A stretch of DNA of 21,741 nucleotides from a virus. A program made the translations under genes and the position numbers. The stretch spans positions 1-21,741 of IMG/VR virus record IMGVR_UViG_3300035659_001673; one strand, written 5' to 3'. Below the pieces are notes generated by a model. It did no database searches, was not told where the DNA came from, and saw only the letters and a list, made by a program, of their open reading frames with translations. Of the stretch, positions 11,829 through 19,981 are shown one piece after another. The stretch's first letter is position 1. Every line of letters starts with the position of its first letter.

Positions 11829-13784
11829 ATGAAACCGCTCACGTCAGCAACTGCTGCTCTTCTGAAGCCAATCGCGCTTCACGAGACCGATCGAATGACC
11901 ATCCGCTTGGATGGGAATTACTTCATCTGCGAAATTCACGCAGTGACTGCACATGATCCAACGAAATGGACATGGGCAAGTTATCCCGCACGTTCTCATT
12001 TTCCCGTGCGTGTACCCGAGCGCAAAGTTCTCACTGGTGGAAAGTCAGACACTTGGCAATTCGGTGCTACTGACATCACTGTGACGGTCATCAATGCACT
12101 TTGGAAACCCGAACAACTTGAGTTCATTGGCGAAGATGCTCAGCTGCAATACGACTATCTGATCGCGTCGTCAATCGCGTATGCTCGCATCAGTGAAATG
12201 TCGGCAACATACCACGCAGACAAGTCTGTTCCTGCGCATCAAATGTCGAGCCATGCAGACTTTCCGCTTACACCTTATCAGCGTGTGGCAACTGCCGCTT
12301 CACTGCTCACTCCGGGATATGCGCTCTTCATGGAGCAAGGCACGGGCAAAACTCCGTGCGTGATTAGTCACATCAACACGGAAGCGTCGAAGTGCAATGG
12401 ACGCATGCATAGATCATTGATCGTATGCCCAAAGCAGGTTCGAACCAATTGGGTTGAAGAGTTGGAAAAGTTCTCGACCGTGCATGGTCGCGCGACAATC
12501 TTGCGTGGTGACAACGTTGACCGCATCAAGTTGCTGATTGACGCACTCACTCCGATGAATGGCGACAAATACACTGCAGTGATTTGCAGTTACGAAGTCA
12601 TGACGCGCATGCAAGAAGCATTGATGACCCTCGAGTGGGATTTGATTACCCTCGATGAAGGTCACAGCATCAAAGCACCAAATTCAAAACGCACGCGTGC
12701 GAGTCACGTGTTGCGCGAGCACTCAACCAAAAAGCTTTTGCTGACAGGTTCTCCGATTGGCAACACGATGCTTGACCTTTACAGTCAGCTCGAGTTTCTC
12801 GGCAAAGGTGCAAGTGGGTTCACAACGTGGAAGGCATTCAAGAATTTCTACGGTGTCTACATCAAGGACGAAAGCACGGGTGGATACGAAAAGCTGATTG
12901 GCATTCAGAATTTGCCGTTCATGAAAGAACGTCTTGCTCGTTATAGCTTCATCATCAAGAAGAAAGATGCACTCCCTGACTTGCCTGATAAGCTCTACAG
13001 AGTGCTCGAGTGTTCGATGGGTGCAAAGCAGACTGATGCATATAACAGTCTCAGCACTTCACTCATGGCTGAAATCGATCAAGACCTCTTGCGTGATGAT
13101 GCGCCTCCGTCAGTTGTCATCAACAACGTGTTGACGAAGTTGCTGCGGCTTGCACAAGTCACATCAGGATTTATTCCGCTTGATCCATATTATGGTGACA
13201 ACGGAGAGGTGATTCAAAAACGGCGCATCAAGCACTTCACTCCGAACCCAAAGCTCGACACACTCGTTGAAGCGTTGAAGGAGAAGGATCCAAATAGCAA
13301 GAGTGTGATTTGGTGCCATTGGATACCGGACATCTTGACCATCCGTGAGCGCCTTGAAGCTGAAGGCAGAAACGTAGTATCCTTCTATGGTGGCACAAGT
13401 GAAGCTGATCGTGCGGAGGCAATACGAAGATTCAATTGCGATCCAAATTGCAAAGTGTTCATCAGCAATCCTGCAGCGGGTGGGTCTGGTCTCAACTTGC
13501 TTGGTTATCCGCCAGGAAAACCTGAAGGGTATGATACGAACTGCGATGAGCACTTTGTGTACTCGCAATCATGGAGCTACTTGACTCGCAGCCAAGCTGA
13601 AGACCGCAGTCATCGCAAAGGTACTCGAGTGCCCGTGCAAATCACGGACCTCTGCGTGCCAAAGACAATCGACGAAGAAATTCGTGTGCGTGTGTTGAAG
13701 AAGAAGAAAGACGCGTTGGAAATTTCGGACATCAGAGACATCCTCAAAGCAGTATTGCACGGAGTAGCCAGAGATGACGAGTAA
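11829..13784 (+). CDS. SNF2-type superfamily 2 DNA helicase/translocase
   Basis: A 651-aa ATP-dependent DNA translocase. After an N-terminal domain of about 145 residues, the helicase core starts at LTPYQR (148-152). Walker A is EQGTGKT (169-175), motif Ia is SLIVCPKQVRTNW (196-208), and motif II is DEGH (276-279). Motif III is TGSP (307-309 region). The second RecA-like lobe includes KSVIWCHW (491-498), motif V as AAGGSGLNL (549-557) and motif VI as QAEDRSHRKGT (589-599). The Q-x-x-D-R-x-H-R form of motif VI is typical of SNF2 proteins in phages. DEGH replaces the more common DEAH/DEGH-type boxes of relatives without loss of the acidic pair. It is the first gene after the promoter, with a weak ribosome site (AGGTC). 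Probable roles are replication fork remodelling or recombination. Confidence 0.88.
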   Translation: MKPLTSATAALLKPIALHETDRMTIRLDGNYFICEIHAVTAHDPTKWTWASYPARSHFPVRVPERKVLTGGKSDTWQFGATDITVTVINALWKPEQLEFIGEDAQLQYDYLIASSIAYARISEMSATYHADKSVPAHQMSSHADFPLTPYQRVATAASLLTPGYALFMEQGTGKTPCVISHINTEASKCNGRMHRSLIVCPKQVRTNWVEELEKFSTVHGRATILRGDNVDRIKLLIDALTPMNGDKYTAVICSYEVMTRMQEALMTLEWDLITLDEGHSIKAPNSKRTRASHVLREHSTKKLLLTGSPIGNTMLDLYSQLEFLGKGASGFTTWKAFKNFYGVYIKDESTGGYEKLIGIQNLPFMKERLARYSFIIKKKDALPDLPDKLYRVLECSMGAKQTDAYNSLSTSLMAEIDQDLLRDDAPPSVVINNVLTKLLRLAQVTSGFIPLDPYYGDNGEVIQKRRIKHFTPNPKLDTLVEALKEKDPNSKSVIWCHWIPDILTIRERLEAEGRNVVSFYGGTSEADRAEAIRRFNCDPNCKVFISNPAAGGSGLNLLGYPPGKPEGYDTNCDEHFVYSQSWSYLTRSQAEDRSHRKGTRVPVQITDLCVPKTIDEEIRVRVLKKKKDALEISDIRDILKAVLHGVARDDE

Positions 13785-14717: not shown

Positions 14718-15593
14718 ATGTCAAAAGCGAAAGACAATGAAGTTGCAGTGCAACGTCCGGGAGCATTAACACTCTCGACCGCTCCGAGCTTCTTGCAGAA
14801 GTACACGGAGGAGCACGGTGCAGTTGGTTTGGAAAACGCGCAAGCGTTCATCAAGCCACCAAGGTTGAAGATCATCCAAAAGGCGGCACAAGCACCCTAC
14901 AGTGATACGTTCAACACTGGTGACGTCGTGATGGTTCCGCAGATGGCACTTGTCGCACCAATCATGGTCGACGAGAAGGGCAAGTCGGGTGACCGAGGTG
15001 CTCCGTTTCATTTCGTGCCATTGTTCTTCTTTCCCGAGTGGTGCTTGTGGAACCCGATTCAAACGAAGGGGCAACTCGATGCCATTCGCAATCGGTCATT
15101 CGACAAGTCAAGCATCCTCGCGCAGAAGAGTCGTGACCCGAACTCGCGAGCTGAACCATGCCCTGAGGCGCCGCAGTTCATGATGAAGTACCAAGAGCAC
15201 TTGAACTTCGTCTTGATGATTCTCGGCGACAATGAGTGCGCGGGAACACCCGTCATTCAGAGCTTTTTCAGGGGTGAGCATCGAACGGGAAGCACGCTAC
15301 TCAGCGTTGCGAAGATGCGCAAGGCTCCGATGTTTGGACAGATCTTCGAAGCCACGAGTACCTATCGCCCTGGTTCAGGCAAAGGTGATTGGTACGGTTT
15401 GGACATCACTGCACCGAGCATGGTGTCTGGGCTCAGTTCGTGGGTGACAGACGCAGGAATGTTTGCTGCCTACGAGAAGATGCATGAAGAGTTGAAGAAG
15501 GCACATGCTGACAACGCAATCGTTGTCGACATGGATGACCTTGACGACTCGACATACAACGACTCGTTAGCAAACAACCCTGACAAGATGTAG
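14718..15593 (+). CDS. Possible single-stranded DNA-binding protein
   Basis: A 291-aa soluble protein. I see an N-terminal low-complexity stretch, then PPRLKIIQKAAQ (about residues 47-58) and a beta-rich core with GDVVMVPQMALVAPI. An aromatic-rich segment follows (FHFVPLFFFPEWCLW, about 97-111), with a strand series of the type HLNFVLMILGDNE and a basic RGEHRTGSTLLSV. The C-terminus is strongly acidic (DMDDLDD). Abundant aromatic and basic strands plus an acidic tail resemble phage ssDNA-binding proteins, and the gene lies between two helicases, where such a protein is expected. GGAG sits about 9 nt before the ATG. The assignment is inference; the protein could instead be an annealing or other replication factor. 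A terminator-like structure follows. Confidence 0.42.
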   Translation: MSKAKDNEVAVQRPGALTLSTAPSFLQKYTEEHGAVGLENAQAFIKPPRLKIIQKAAQAPYSDTFNTGDVVMVPQMALVAPIMVDEKGKSGDRGAPFHFVPLFFFPEWCLWNPIQTKGQLDAIRNRSFDKSSILAQKSRDPNSRAEPCPEAPQFMMKYQEHLNFVLMILGDNECAGTPVIQSFFRGEHRTGSTLLSVAKMRKAPMFGQIFEATSTYRPGSGKGDWYGLDITAPSMVSGLSSWVTDAGMFAAYEKMHEELKKAHADNAIVVDMDDLDDSTYNDSLANNPDKM

Positions 15594-15604
15594 TCACGAT
15601 CGAG

Positions 15605-15670
15605 AACCGCGCGACGGTTCGTAAAACTAAGTTTAACTGCCCTTGGGCTTAGTGCCGTCGCGCGGATTTT
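15605..15670 (+). terminator. Nested inverted repeat: terminator or attenuator before the primase gene
   Basis: CCGCGCGACGG (15607-15617) pairs perfectly over 11 bp with CCGTCGCGCGG (15655-15665), followed by ATTTT. Inside the 37-nt loop, ACTAAG (15626-15631) pairs with CTTAGT (15648-15653). The left arm can alternatively fold alone, with AACCG (15605-15609) pairing with CGGTT (15615-15619), which would break the long stem. It ends 22 bp before the next start. Confidence 0.7.
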
Positions 15671-15692
15671 ACTCTTGCATGGATCGCTTCGT

Positions 15693-18560
15693 ATGTCATT
15701 AGAAAAAGTCAGCATACTGGCGGAGCTTGAACGCAACGGAATCACGTTTGACTACGTGTCCGAAAGCAGTGTCAAGGTTCTTTGCCCGTTCCACTCCGAT
15801 CATAGCCCGTCATGTCACGTTGACCTCAAGCGACACAACTATAAGTGCTTTGCCGCTGGATGTATGTCGACTGGTGACTTCGCAACATATCTTGCGGGCG
15901 TACTCAAGACTGATCGCACGACAGTCCTTGTCGACCTTGCGAAGCGATACGGCACAACACCCGCTTCAAAGATCATCAATGCAAATGTAATTGAATCTTA
16001 CCATGCCAAAATCTGGCAGGCATTTCCGCTTCTCAAAGAGCTATACGATCGCGGAATAACTGACGATGACATTCGTGAGCTTCGTCTAGGTGAGCATCAT
16101 GGTCGGATAACTATTCCAATCACTGATGAGTATGGCTTGTTCGTTAACATTCGGAAGTACCTTCCTGGCGCACCTGGCTCAGACAAGATGCAAGGTACCA
16201 AAGGCCATAACGAAATTCGTCTTTGGCCGATGAAGCAACTTGCATACCCGACGATTGTAATTCTCGGTGGAGAGTTAAAGCAACGTGTTGTGCAGAAAGA
16301 ACTGAATGCTGCAAACATCGGAGCAGTCACTACCACTGCAGGTGAAGGCAACTGGGATAAAAAGTTCTCACCGCTGTTTCATGGCAAGAAAGTTTACGTC
16401 TGTCTTGACATCGATGATGAGGGACAATCTGCAGCGCACTCATTGTGTGATACTCTAAGGCACTTCGCATCTTGGGTTGGCAACGTTGTTCTTCCACTCA
16501 ATCCAAATAAGTATCCGCATGGTGATGTTAATGACTTGATCGGGCAAGAGAAGCAACTGTTTCTACCCTTGCTTGATGTAGTTGAAAAGTGGACACCTCC
16601 TCCACTAGTTCACTCTGGCCAAATGTTCGATGACAAAGCGTCTCCGAATAAATTAGGCTTGCATCAAGCAAGTCATGCACGATGGGCAAACAAGCGCTTG
16701 CAAGTCAAAGCGATAGTTGCAGCAATGGATACAAGTCCATTTGCAATTCCCAAGAGTGTCACAGTGTTGTGCGACAAGCAACAACCTTGGTGCAACCTTT
16801 GTCCAGTGAAAGATGCAGAAGACAGACTTGAGTACAGTATTCATAATGAGCATCCAGCTTTGCTCGAAATGATTAACACAACTAAGGGTGCGCAGTCAGA
16901 TGCTCTCAAGCGTGGTATCGGAGTTCCATTACCTTGCTTGTCTGCGACGTTTAATGTGCTCGAGTATTACAACATTGAAGATGTGCGACTTTCGCCGGAA
17001 CTGGAAGTATCCAACCGAGCTTCCGAGCGAACGATGACGCCGGCAATGTGCATTGGTAACGACATTCAACTCAATGAAAATTATCAGTTCACTGGACGGA
17101 TGCATCCGCACCCAAAAACTCAGCATGCGACTTTGCTTATCAGCAAGTATCGTCCGACCAAAGATGCGCTGAGTACTTATCAGTGCAACAAGCTTGAACG
17201 TCTCGGATTATTCCAACCTCTTGAATGGACTGTCGATAGCATTCAACAGAGGCTTGATGTAATCTACGAAGACTTCGAAGCAAATATCACGCGAATCTAT
17301 ATGCGACGTGATGTGCACTTGATTGTCGACTTGGCTTATCACTCTCCGTTGCTGCTTAACTTTGATGGGAAGCAAGTCAAAGGTTGGGTTGAAGCACTTG
17401 TTGTAGGTGACTCGGCACAAGGCAAAACCGAGACAGTCATGAACATGCTTGGTCACTATGCCCTTGGCGAAAAAGTGGAGTGCAAAAATGCAAGTGTTGC
17501 TGGACTACTCGGTGGACTTGCCCAAATGGGAACTCAGTGGTTCGTATCTTGGGGCATCATACCAACGCACGACAAACGATTGGTTGTACTTGAAGAGCTC
17601 AAAGGTGCAAGCAAAGAAGTTATTGCAAAGCTTACCGACATGCGGTCAAGTGGTATCGCTGAAATACCTAAGATCGAAAAGCGCAAGACTCATGCACGCA
17701 CACGTCTGATAGCACTGAGCAACTCTCGCTCGGGTCATGCGATGGCTTCATATAATTATGGCATCGAGGCGATTGCAGAATTGATCGGAGCACTCGAAGA
17801 CGTACGTCGCTTCGACATCAGTTGCATCGTCTCTGCAAACGACCTTGATGTAGGTGTAATCAATCAGCTTCAAATACATCGACCGAAGATTGCACATCTT
17901 CATACAAGCGAACTATGCCGGCAGTTAATTCTCTGGGCATGGACACGGACAACAGAGCAAATCAGTTTTGATGAAGACGCGACTGCTTTAATTATGGCGG
18001 AGTCAACCAACCTTTGTGAGGAGTTTACAGATGCAATACCGGTTATTGATAGAGGCTCCACCAGGCACAAGATTGCAAGATTGTCTGCGAGCCTTGCCAG
18101 TCGTACTTTTTCCACCGGAGAAAGTTTGGAAAGCATTCGAGTTCGAGGAGCGCACGTACAATATACTACAGGACTCCTTAGACGATTGTATTCTAGCTCG
18201 GCATTTGGCTATGGAGATTACACAGAATCTGTTCGCATGAATCAGAAGCTTGTGGATCCGACTGAGATTAAGATGCGACTAAATGTCGTTAGCTTCCCAC
18301 GCGACTTTGTAAAGCAGTCACTGCACAGCGGTACGATTGATCGGACGGACATCGCAGATTGGCTTGGCTGGGACAGAGAAAAAGCAAACGAGCTACTAAG
18401 CTTCTTGGTGCGCAAGCATGCGCTTGTGCGAGATGACAGTGGAAGAGCGTATCGAAAGACACCTCCATACATCCAGCTACTGAAACACATGCTGGAAAAT
18501 GGAACTCCCAACACGGCAATTGACAAACCGAAACACATTCCAATTGAGGAGACAATGTAA
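15693..18560 (+). CDS. CHC2/Toprim primase fused to an MCM-like helicase
   Basis: A 955-aa protein that probably primes and unwinds DNA at the fork. A CHC2-type zinc finger has C31-P-F-H34, PSC at 39-41, C52 and C57. The primase core contains GRITIPI (137-143) and NIRKYLPG. Toprim residues are E194 (GGELKQ) and D239/D241 (CLDIDDEG). Residues about 310-500 look like an MCM N-terminal region, with a zinc-like C360, C367, C370 and OB-type strands. The AAA+ core has Walker A GDSAQGKT (572-579), Walker B VVLEEL (631-636), sensor LSNS (675-678) and the arginine-finger motif RRFD (705-708). A winged-helix-like end (about 880-925) contains TDIADWLGWDREKANELL. I prefer ATG 15693 to an upstream in-frame TTG at 15675; neither has a strong ribosome site. 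Walker B has Glu in place of the usual Asp. Confidence 0.8.
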   Translation: MSLEKVSILAELERNGITFDYVSESSVKVLCPFHSDHSPSCHVDLKRHNYKCFAAGCMSTGDFATYLAGVLKTDRTTVLVDLAKRYGTTPASKIINANVIESYHAKIWQAFPLLKELYDRGITDDDIRELRLGEHHGRITIPITDEYGLFVNIRKYLPGAPGSDKMQGTKGHNEIRLWPMKQLAYPTIVILGGELKQRVVQKELNAANIGAVTTTAGEGNWDKKFSPLFHGKKVYVCLDIDDEGQSAAHSLCDTLRHFASWVGNVVLPLNPNKYPHGDVNDLIGQEKQLFLPLLDVVEKWTPPPLVHSGQMFDDKASPNKLGLHQASHARWANKRLQVKAIVAAMDTSPFAIPKSVTVLCDKQQPWCNLCPVKDAEDRLEYSIHNEHPALLEMINTTKGAQSDALKRGIGVPLPCLSATFNVLEYYNIEDVRLSPELEVSNRASERTMTPAMCIGNDIQLNENYQFTGRMHPHPKTQHATLLISKYRPTKDALSTYQCNKLERLGLFQPLEWTVDSIQQRLDVIYEDFEANITRIYMRRDVHLIVDLAYHSPLLLNFDGKQVKGWVEALVVGDSAQGKTETVMNMLGHYALGEKVECKNASVAGLLGGLAQMGTQWFVSWGIIPTHDKRLVVLEELKGASKEVIAKLTDMRSSGIAEIPKIEKRKTHARTRLIALSNSRSGHAMASYNYGIEAIAELIGALEDVRRFDISCIVSANDLDVGVINQLQIHRPKIAHLHTSELCRQLILWAWTRTTEQISFDEDATALIMAESTNLCEEFTDAIPVIDRGSTRHKIARLSASLASRTFSTGESLESIRVRGAHVQYTTGLLRRLYSSSAFGYGDYTESVRMNQKLVDPTEIKMRLNVVSFPRDFVKQSLHSGTIDRTDIADWLGWDREKANELLSFLVRKHALVRDDSGRAYRKTPPYIQLLKHMLENGTPNTAIDKPKHIPIEETM

Positions 18561-19129
18561 TGTTAATGCAAATGCAACAAGTAAAAGATTTTCATCGCAA
18601 GCTTGACGTCGGCCGACCATGCCGACCTGGCGACGATGCTTTGTTGATACTCGAAGAGGTCTCGTTGAGCATACAAAGACTTTCTAAAATGCTCGAGCCA
18701 CTCGGTGCGATCGATGAGCGCTTCAGTCGGATGCACTTGATCTTTGAAGAAGCGGCGGAACTTGGCATTGAACTCAGTAAAGGTTTGCCGCTGACTGACA
18801 CTGAGGAGTCGTATAACCTCGAGGCAGCAATGCTGGATGGTTTGTCTGACTTGCTGTACGTTGTGCTTGGAACAGCCGTGACGTTTGATTGGCCGATGGT
18901 CAATGCGTTTGCTGAAGTGCACGATAGCAACATGACCAAAGAGAAGCAAGATGACGACGAGGCTGGACATCGTGTCCGTCTCAAAGGTCCGAACTACAAA
19001 GCACCTGACTTGGTGTCAGTGCTTCGCGCGTATCGTGAGCATCAGCGACTTCATGCTGAGTGCTCACACAACAACCCACTCAAACATTCGGAGGATGACG
19101 ACGATGCTCTATCAGAAGGTCGAGATTGA
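18560..19129 (+). CDS. MazG-like NTP pyrophosphohydrolase
   Basis: A 189-aa all-alpha nucleotide pyrophosphatase of the MazG/PRA-PH type, which would hydrolyse NTPs or dNTPs to monophosphates. The metal-binding pattern is EEAAE (63-67) with DGLSD (93-97) and the following LLYVVLGTA. The region DFH at residues 10-12 and AEVHDSNMTK (118-127), with a basic RLKGPNY segment, matches the phage members well. The start overlaps the primase-MCM stop (TAATG) with GAGGAG about 9 nt before it. The C-terminal 50 residues are charged and hydrophilic and may be disordered. It probably removes unwanted nucleotides or tunes the pool for the phage polymerase. Substrate specificity cannot be read. Confidence 0.82.
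   Translation: MLMQMQQVKDFHRKLDVGRPCRPGDDALLILEEVSLSIQRLSKMLEPLGAIDERFSRMHLIFEEAAELGIELSKGLPLTDTEESYNLEAAMLDGLSDLLYVVLGTAVTFDWPMVNAFAEVHDSNMTKEKQDDDEAGHRVRLKGPNYKAPDLVSVLRAYREHQRLHAECSHNNPLKHSEDDDDALSEGRD
19090..19094 (+). promoter_or_regulatory. Ribosome binding site that selects ATG 19104
   Basis: GGAGG is a full consensus site 9 nt before ATG 19104. The in-frame ATG at 19095 directly abuts it and could not be used with this site. Confidence 0.7.
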
Positions 19130-19361
19130 ATTGCCCGTGCAAATGGTTGGTGGACACGTTCGCTATCTTGAAGCGATGGGTGGAGTCGGCCATGCTAGTG
19201 TGATTGTGATGCTGATTGAAAAGCCTAACTATATGGTCGCAAAGATCGGGTCAGGTGATGAGAACTGGGTTGCACAGTTCGGAATGGATTTGACATTGCA
19301 ACAAGCAAAGGTGTTCTTTCCAACCGCTCACATGCAAAGCTATAGGGAGCCAAAGTCTTGA
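19104..19361 (+). CDS. Small unknown protein
   Basis: An 85-aa protein of unknown function. It is mixed alpha/beta: a first strand YQKVEIELPVQM, a Gly-rich turn, a second strand SVIVMLIEKPNYMVAKIG, and an end containing LTLQQAKVFFPTAHMQSY. The GGAGG site fixes the start, so the gene overlaps the MazG-like gene by 26 bp. Its TGA overlaps the TTG start of the kinase gene. The two-gene coupling suggests that it is made in step with the nucleotide enzymes. It is too short and plain for a motif-based call. Confidence 0.5.
   Translation: MLYQKVEIELPVQMVGGHVRYLEAMGGVGHASVIVMLIEKPNYMVAKIGSGDENWVAQFGMDLTLQQAKVFFPTAHMQSYREPKS
19345..19349 (+). promoter_or_regulatory. Ribosome binding site supporting the TTG start of the kinase
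   Basis: GGGAG lies 8 nt before TTG 19358. The kinase P-loop begins only four codons later, so no later start would keep a complete first strand. Confidence 0.7.
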
Positions 19362-19981
19362 TTATTATTGAAGGCACCGACACACTCGGCAAGACGACAC
19401 TTGCCCAGAAACTTGTGGCAAGCAAAGAGCTTGTTGCTCAAGGATACTTGTATCGGCACTTGACTCGTCCGCCAAGTACGCTCAATCGGTTCTGGGGTTA
19501 CCTTGATGAAGCGGCAGCGCACACTGTGCAAGATCGATTCCACATGAGCGAGGTTGCTTACAGCTATGCTCGAGGTGATCGATCAAGTCCACTCTCACCA
19601 GAAATGTACAACATGGTGGATGCATTCTTGCGCTTGCAAGGTGCGTTCACAGTTGTGCTGACTGCAAGCAGAGACTTGATCGAGCGGCGTTTCAGAGAAG
19701 TAACTGCGGAACCTGGTCGAACAGAAATGTATGATCTTGACGTTGTTCAACGAGCAAATTCTGCATTCCGATACTTTGCTCAAGGTGCGTTTATATACGA
19801 GCCAATTGACTTGTACCGCGCTGACTCTCACTTTCATATCGAACTAACAGAGGACTATCCATGGGTAAGCGCAAGACAAGTCGAAAAGCTGTTGAGTGTG
19901 TTCGTGCAGTTTCAGAACAAGCATCGTCGAATTATAGAGTCTCGCCAACCCTTTCAGAGGCCATCCGTTTGGCTGGGCTAG
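19358..19981 (+). CDS. Thymidylate/dNMP kinase-like P-loop protein
   Basis: A 207-aa nucleotide kinase that would phosphorylate a deoxynucleoside monophosphate for replication. The first strand and Walker A are IIIEGTDTLGKTT (residues 2-14). DRFHMSEVAYS (59-69) matches the substrate-binding DR motif of the thymidylate kinase superfamily. The stretch LTASRDLIERRFRE (101-114) corresponds to the third strand and LID region with its Arg residues. Translation starts at TTG, overlapping the previous TGA by 2 bp. The rare start is supported by the GGGAG site and the need for the first strand. The C-terminal 40 residues overlap another gene in a different frame. The exact nucleotide substrate is not readable. 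Confidence 0.75.
   Translation: MIIIEGTDTLGKTTLAQKLVASKELVAQGYLYRHLTRPPSTLNRFWGYLDEAAAHTVQDRFHMSEVAYSYARGDRSSPLSPEMYNMVDAFLRLQGAFTVVLTASRDLIERRFREVTAEPGRTEMYDLDVVQRANSAFRYFAQGAFIYEPIDLYRADSHFHIELTEDYPWVSARQVEKLLSVFVQFQNKHRRIIESRQPFQRPSVWLG

Follow-up and report, generated by a model that had tools for sequence, protein, structure and literature searches.

Textbook replisomes come in two pairings: a RecA-like helicase ringed around the lagging strand works with a DnaG primase, and an MCM helicase ringed around the leading strand works with an archaeo-eukaryotic primase (AEP). An MCM motor travels 3'-5', its N-terminal tier in front. In gp4 of phage T7, the motor is RecA-like and travels 5'-3' with the lagging strand inside the ring (PMC12593628), and phage MCMs joined to AEP primases have already been described (PMC5862659). 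One AEP-MCM fusion, BcMCM, is reported to be a 3'-5' helicase; it was first described without primase activity, and a later study assigned it both primase and polymerase activity (PMC4538821). The primase of yeast and human replisomes is placed on the MCM N-tier, above the lagging-strand exit (PMC10501992).

The DNA analysed here (hereafter the window) is IMG/VR record IMGVR_UViG_3300035659_001673, a metagenomic contig of 21,741 bases, which is probably a fragment of a phage genome; any other replication genes of this phage would lie outside these 21.7 kb. A sequence-only reading had proposed that one of its genes joins a CHC2-Toprim primase to an MCM-like helicase in a single polypeptide, and family profiles, a structural model and residue conservation all bear this out.

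Gene context and domain architecture

The gene is an uninterrupted open reading frame on the plus strand (15693..18560), running from an ATG at 15693 to a stop codon ending at 18560 and encoding 955 amino acid residues; its assignment as a CHC2-Toprim-MCM primase-helicase draws on Pfam, a family profile and the model. A TTG at 15675 precedes this ATG in the same frame, and the relatives start at the position equivalent to the ATG. In the window, a phage_cap_E major capsid gene and tail genes, including the tape measure, are followed by an early block, all members of which lie on the plus strand. This block comprises an SNF2-type helicase (11829..13784; Pfam 2.3e-32), a Pam3 gp34-like protein just upstream of the primase-helicase gene (14718..15593; Pfam 1e-9), the primase-helicase itself, a MazG/PRA-PH-like NTP pyrophosphohydrolase just downstream (18560..19129; PHROG 3.2e-19) and a thymidylate-kinase-like protein (19358..19981; PHROG 3.8e-7). 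The last three of these neighbours of the primase-helicase are conserved in 73, 58 and 48 loci, respectively, and homologues of the SNF2-type ATPase were found near the primase-helicase in 84 related loci.

The intergenic region just 5' of the gene harbours a stem-loop (15607-15665; fold z -4.5), in which a perfect 11-bp inverted repeat, CCGCGCGACGG/CCGTCGCGCGG, encloses a second hairpin. An analogous upstream stem composed of different bases occurs in locus L081, and a fold z below -2 was obtained for 22 of the 64 upstream regions of 110 bases; the element may be a terminator, a regulator or part of an origin. A candidate upstream origin or promoter motif, TTGCATGG, was set aside: it matches 4 times in the window (≤1 mismatch), where 1.7 matches would be expected, and GCATGG is present in 5 of 64 upstream regions. 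Scans for tRNAs and against Rfam found nothing.

Residue counts given below refer, unless stated otherwise, to 188 full-length sequences, that is, the window protein and the 187 Toprim-MCM proteins among 208 unique full-length relatives in the gathered loci. The primase part (aa ~27-300) consists of a CHC2 zinc finger and a DnaG-type Toprim core. The finger (aa 27-89, 15771..15959), with C31, H34, C52 and C57 recognised from column counts, matches Pfam Zn_ribbon_DnaG (CHC2, PF01807) above the cut-off with the single sequence (E 6e-10). The N-terminal part of the catalytic core (aa 97-170, 15981..16202; R138, R154, K165) was delimited by the profile match to DnaG (2au3) and by the model, and R154 and K165 are each kept in 181/188 sequences. 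It is followed by the Toprim domain (aa 187-290, 16251..16562; E194, D239, D241, D278, D281), detected by Pfam, weakly in the window protein, and by profile, the acidic residues of which are near-invariant (E194 and D239 in 188/188, D241 in 185/188). Compared with PDB sequences, a family profile built from 8 relatives matched DnaG 2au3 over aa 24-302 (E 6.7e-29), its match to T7 gp4 (1nui) being confined to the Toprim part; a single-sequence PDB search retrieved DnaG only. The AEP/PriS primase family PF01896 is absent from the window protein. A Toprim fold with the E and DxD metal ligands is present, and RNA primer synthesis is predicted. In three relatives, Krampus (L005), Wollypog (L006) and Sparcetus (L010), no Pfam CHC2 match was obtained, the first cysteine pair being kept as CPxC and the second altered; were CHC2 missing, template recognition would be weaker in Krampus- and Wollypog-type relatives.

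The helicase half begins with an equivalent of the MCM N-tier (aa 312-490, 16626..17162), composed of a zinc site and an OB-like beta barrel. This second zinc site (C360, C367, C370 and C415; 16770..16937) is invariant in the 61 closest sequences and is found in Toprim and AEP relatives alike, with C360, C367 and C370 kept in 178-179/188, C415 in 167/188, and the site carried by 21/21 AEP relatives. The MCM AAA+ motor (aa 497-835, 17181..18197), recognised by Pfam, two profiles and fold comparison, displays the Walker A motif GDSAQGKT (aa 572-579, 17406..17429), whose K578 is present in 209/209 sequences, a helix-2-insert beta hairpin (aa 607-620, 17511..17552) and a pre-sensor-1 beta hairpin with a basic tip (aa 655-667, 17655..17693), the first hairpin taken from the secondary structure of the model and the second from model and sequence. 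These are followed by the invariant sensor 1 asparagine N677 (17721..17723), the arginine-finger motif EDVRRFD (aa 702-708, 17796..17816; R706 invariant), which aligns with the MCM SRFD, and a sensor-2-like KIAR (aa 793-796, 18069..18080; K793 185/188, R796 177/188). A winged helix (aa 855-936, 18255..18500) closes the chain. The GD-starting Walker A, the helix-2-insert-like spacing, the sensor with its RRFD arginine finger, the zinc/OB-like region and the terminal winged helix had each been read from the sequence, and all are recovered here. The EE pair noted at Walker B (LVVLEE, aa 630-635, 17580..17597) is likewise real at 634-635, with E635 in 187/188, but it is no peculiarity of this protein, the first position being E in 75 and D in 113 of the 188 sequences. 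Besides E194, D239, K578, N677 and R706, R671 is also invariant in 188/188, and substitutions at D241, E635 and K793 occur in no more than 3 of the 188.

With the single sequence, the Pfam MCM model matched aa 516-713 with 19.5 bits (E 5.8e-4), just below its cut-off of 23.3. This match was judged insufficient alone, because the same model also scores above cut-off in bacteria without an MCM, such as E. coli, where it probably finds ComM/Mg-chelatase-like proteins. When the 8-sequence profile was compared with the PDB, the motor matched MCM2-7, MCM9 and archaeal MCMs (best 3.6e-9), and no non-MCM AAA+ family appeared among the 60 matches listed. A second profile, built from the window protein and 60 IMG/VR relatives (61 sequences), gave the same DnaG and MCM outcome, its sole non-MCM P-loop matches being HPr kinase (E about 2). 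No RecA-like (DnaB-type) motor was found, the motor being AAA+/MCM and the T7 matches ending at the Toprim domain. PHROG family phrog_18685, to which no function is assigned, spans aa 316-937 (E 5.5e-74), so that only the C-terminal part of the window protein matches it.

The AlphaFold2 model computed from the 61-sequence alignment has a mean pLDDT of 89.4 and a pTM of 0.65. The 50 best folds retrieved by Foldseek from the PDB were all MCMs (E about 1e-23 to 1e-21), and VIA-align superposed model residues 317-847 on residues 103-607 of SsoMCM bound to DNA (6mii_E; Z 30.2, rmsd 4.9, 461 residues, identity about 14%), thereby covering both the Zn/OB tier and the motor. On profile and fold, aa 497-835 group with MCM and not with RecA/DnaB, SF3 or other AAA+ clades, and the region before the motor aligns with the MCM Zn/OB tier, which were the two points on which the sequence-only reading had staked its proposal. 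The best MCM alignments begin at about residue 100 of archaeal MCM, and the primase occupies the preceding position in the chain; it would stand where MCM subdomain A, taken here as those first ~100 residues, is expected. The C-terminal 110 residues (aa 836-945), modelled separately with a pLDDT of 88.5, matched winged-helix structures in the PDB (Z 7-8), a modelled resemblance to the winged-helix fold in general rather than to that of MCM specifically. A search of a viral fold library returned mainly matches to the primase or to the AAA+ part on its own, and none clearly named as an equivalent of the whole fusion. As a monomer model with a pTM of 0.65, the prediction leaves the placement of the primase against the ring unconstrained.

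Distribution and relation to AEP-MCM proteins

At E 1e-5, a tblastn search recovered 53 GenBank records of phages, and in 45 of them the match extends over 80% or more of the protein. They include a Manatee Spring metagenome phage (MW202657, 41% identity), Bacillus BSP7 and BSTP phages, Weizmannia Youna2, 36 Microbacterium phages, Arthrobacter Wollypog, and Paenibacillus SV21 and API480, and the relatives are annotated as DNA primase, DNA primase/helicase, DNA primase small subunit or DNA directed DNA polymerase. Among seven AEP-less representatives, Pfam recognised MCM in 7/7, Toprim in 7/7 (weakly in SV21) and CHC2 in 4/7. A single-sequence search of IMG/VR found no relatives; profile scans of the same collection yielded 287 related stretches with the 8-sequence profile and 378 in a later scan. 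Close relatives also occur in two MAG contigs that bear the label Robiginitomaculum, no more than a hint of alphaproteobacterial hosts. Hundreds of phages appear to possess the fusion as their sole primase and replicative-type helicase, mostly under the annotation "DNA primase". The window protein is not unique, the same architecture having lain unrecognised in 45 GenBank phage records and hundreds of IMG/VR contigs.

Genes for nucleotide metabolism accompany several of these proteins. In MW202657 (L002 12770-15901), a pyrimidine hydroxymethylase and a dCMP deaminase adjoin the primase-helicase, which, together with the MazG-like and thymidylate-kinase-like genes of the window, suggests modified pyrimidines in the DNA. 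In the Bacillus (L003 8069-11232) and Weizmannia (L004 8021-11670) relatives, queC, queD, queE and folE directly follow the primase-helicase, suggesting a deazaguanine-type DNA modification pathway in these phages.

The 208 full-length relatives comprise 181 with CHC2, Toprim and MCM, 6 with Toprim and MCM in which CHC2 is sub-threshold, and 21 AEP-MCM proteins without CHC2 and Toprim. The branch of Paenibacillus SV21 (L007 4944-7736; relatives e.g. L206, L209) is the deepest in the tree. SV21 is devoid of most of the second-site zinc cysteines, as are about 9 of the 188 relatives, and N-tier zinc may be dispensable in this branch.

AEP-joined MCMs of Bacillus prophages, mentioned in the sequence-only reading, have a helicase half that proves homologous to that of the window protein. 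In phage vB_BboS-125 and in B. velezensis plasmid p3, Pfam detected a PriS-type primase together with MCM, PF01896 being present in vB_BboS-125. In proteins of this type, with which BcMCM is grouped by kind, the primase is also N-terminal and homology extends over ~620 residues (window ~304-937), taking in every motor motif as well as the four zinc cysteines; the primase, in contrast, is archaeo-eukaryotic (PriS-like) and unrelated to CHC2-Toprim. Two unrelated primases are joined to one and the same helicase half, a module swap made by nature. A tree of 49 rows, for which archaeal-type MCMs of viral contigs served as the root, nested five AEP-MCMs with starred support in the Toprim-MCMs, beside L173 and L278, in which the CHC2 and Toprim motifs are intact. 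Because AEP-MCM and Toprim-MCM as separate groups were not rejected by the AU test (p 0.27), the primase exchange may have run in either direction, and the derivation of AEP-MCMs from Toprim-MCMs was not retained as a firm claim. Toprim-MCM may be the older, larger architecture, with AEP-MCMs arising by exchange of the primase module.

Probable role at the replication fork

The protein most probably acts as an active replicative primase-helicase of a tailed phage within one polypeptide, a reading to which we assign a probability of roughly 0.8. Its assignment to both families has been tested thoroughly; what is said here of its activity, polarity and topology is deduced from those families. 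A DnaB_C helicase was not found in any of 27 relatives with one DnaB family model, which matched 14/14 controls, and no second CHC2 primase was detected in these relatives, each genome having at most one. A separate AEP was absent from 19 Toprim-MCM relatives, AEP occurring only in the AEP-MCM phage. A family A polymerase was detected in 18/20 relatives searched, and the other two, Krampus and Wollypog, have an annotated DnaE. The lack of a phage DnaB and of a second primase, the phage polymerase and the conserved block all fit a replicative role; an unrecognised phage helicase or host DnaB is a possible alternative source of helicase.

By analogy with the two parent families, with BcMCM and archaeal MCM as the models for a hexamer that unwinds 3'-5', a DnaG-type primase joined to the N-terminus of an MCM ring with its zinc/OB tier, AAA+ motor and winged helix would assemble as six subunits into a ring on single-stranded DNA. 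The ring would move 3'-5' on the leading-strand template with its N-tier ahead, so that the tethered primases, located at the leading edge, would take the ring-excluded lagging strand and lay RNA primers for extension by the phage polymerase, mostly of family A. The winged helix and the neighbouring early genes may aid loading at the origin. Since MCM moves 3'-5' with the N-tier first and the primase is N-terminal, we lean slightly towards a topology in which the primase primes the excluded strand at the leading edge. By the same analogy, the priming layout would be the reverse of that of T7 gp4 and DnaB-DnaG. We give even odds to a further proposal, namely that a DnaG-type primase has been rewired onto an MCM of opposite polarity, reaching independently a layout like that of eukaryotic CMG-Pol alpha, with Toprim-MCM possibly the older form.

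Other explanations fare less well. The protein might serve restart, repair or recombination-dependent replication at forks driven by host DnaB and DnaG, as could be argued from the exonuclease, RecA-like and DUF669/Rad52-type genes just upstream in related phages and from the SNF2-type helicase in the block of the window. Recombination genes, however, commonly accompany phage replicases, and the missing phage DnaB in 27 relatives, the phage-coded polymerase in nearly all and the strict conservation of both active sites render such a role unlikely. Very unlikely, in turn, is a primase half reduced to a degenerate DNA-binding relic on a protein that is a helicase only: the weak Pfam Toprim match would agree with it, as would the initial report of BcMCM without primase activity (PMC4538821), but a relic would not keep the Toprim metal site and the basic residues R154 and K165 at the frequencies given above.

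The attribution of the C-terminal half to another helix-2-insert AAA+ family (Mg-chelatase/ComM, MoxR or McrB type) profits from the poor discrimination of the Pfam MCM model in bacteria without MCM. It is nevertheless extremely improbable, the family profiles having retrieved MCMs only among PDB AAA+ chains, the top 50 folds being MCMs aligned over Zn/OB tier and motor, and the homologous half of the Bacillus AEP-MCM reaching 1e-13 with Pfam MCM. Finally, a metagenomic contig could in principle join two phage genes as an assembly chimera; the chance of this is negligible, since homologues of full length are encoded by isolated phages whose genomes are complete and by dozens of contigs of independent origin. 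A replicative primase-helicase therefore remains the preferred reading.

Comparison with known replication proteins

No description of a CHC2-Toprim-MCM fusion was found in the open-access literature searched, and an earlier mention is possible; primase-helicase fusions and phage AEP-MCMs are known, and the present architecture is widespread, unrecognised and informative about mechanism rather than categorically new. Its recognition would add a helicase to hundreds of "DNA primase" annotations, and genetics is practical, since relatives are encoded by phages that have been isolated on Bacillus subtilis, Microbacterium and Arthrobacter. How a DnaG-type primase is supplied with template by a ring of opposite polarity becomes testable with a single phage protein.

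Bacterial DnaG shares with the window protein the CHC2 finger and the catalytic core. The C-terminal domain of DnaG binds DnaB; this domain has no counterpart in the window protein, to which a helicase is fused instead. Like T7 gp4 and Twinkle, the window protein combines an N-terminal CHC2-Toprim primase and a ring helicase within a single polypeptide, with a Toprim domain matching 1nui, but the motor of T7 gp4 is RecA-like and runs 5'-3', whereas that of the window protein is an AAA+ MCM motor expected to run 3'-5'. With archaeal MCM and MCM2-7 it has in common the Zn/OB tier, the AAA+ motor with helix-2-insert and pre-sensor-1 hairpins, the arginine finger and the winged helix, and it differs from them in its low identity and in bearing a bacterial-type primase where their first ~100 residues find no match in the best alignments. 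In this manner, the family crosses both textbook pairings in one chain.
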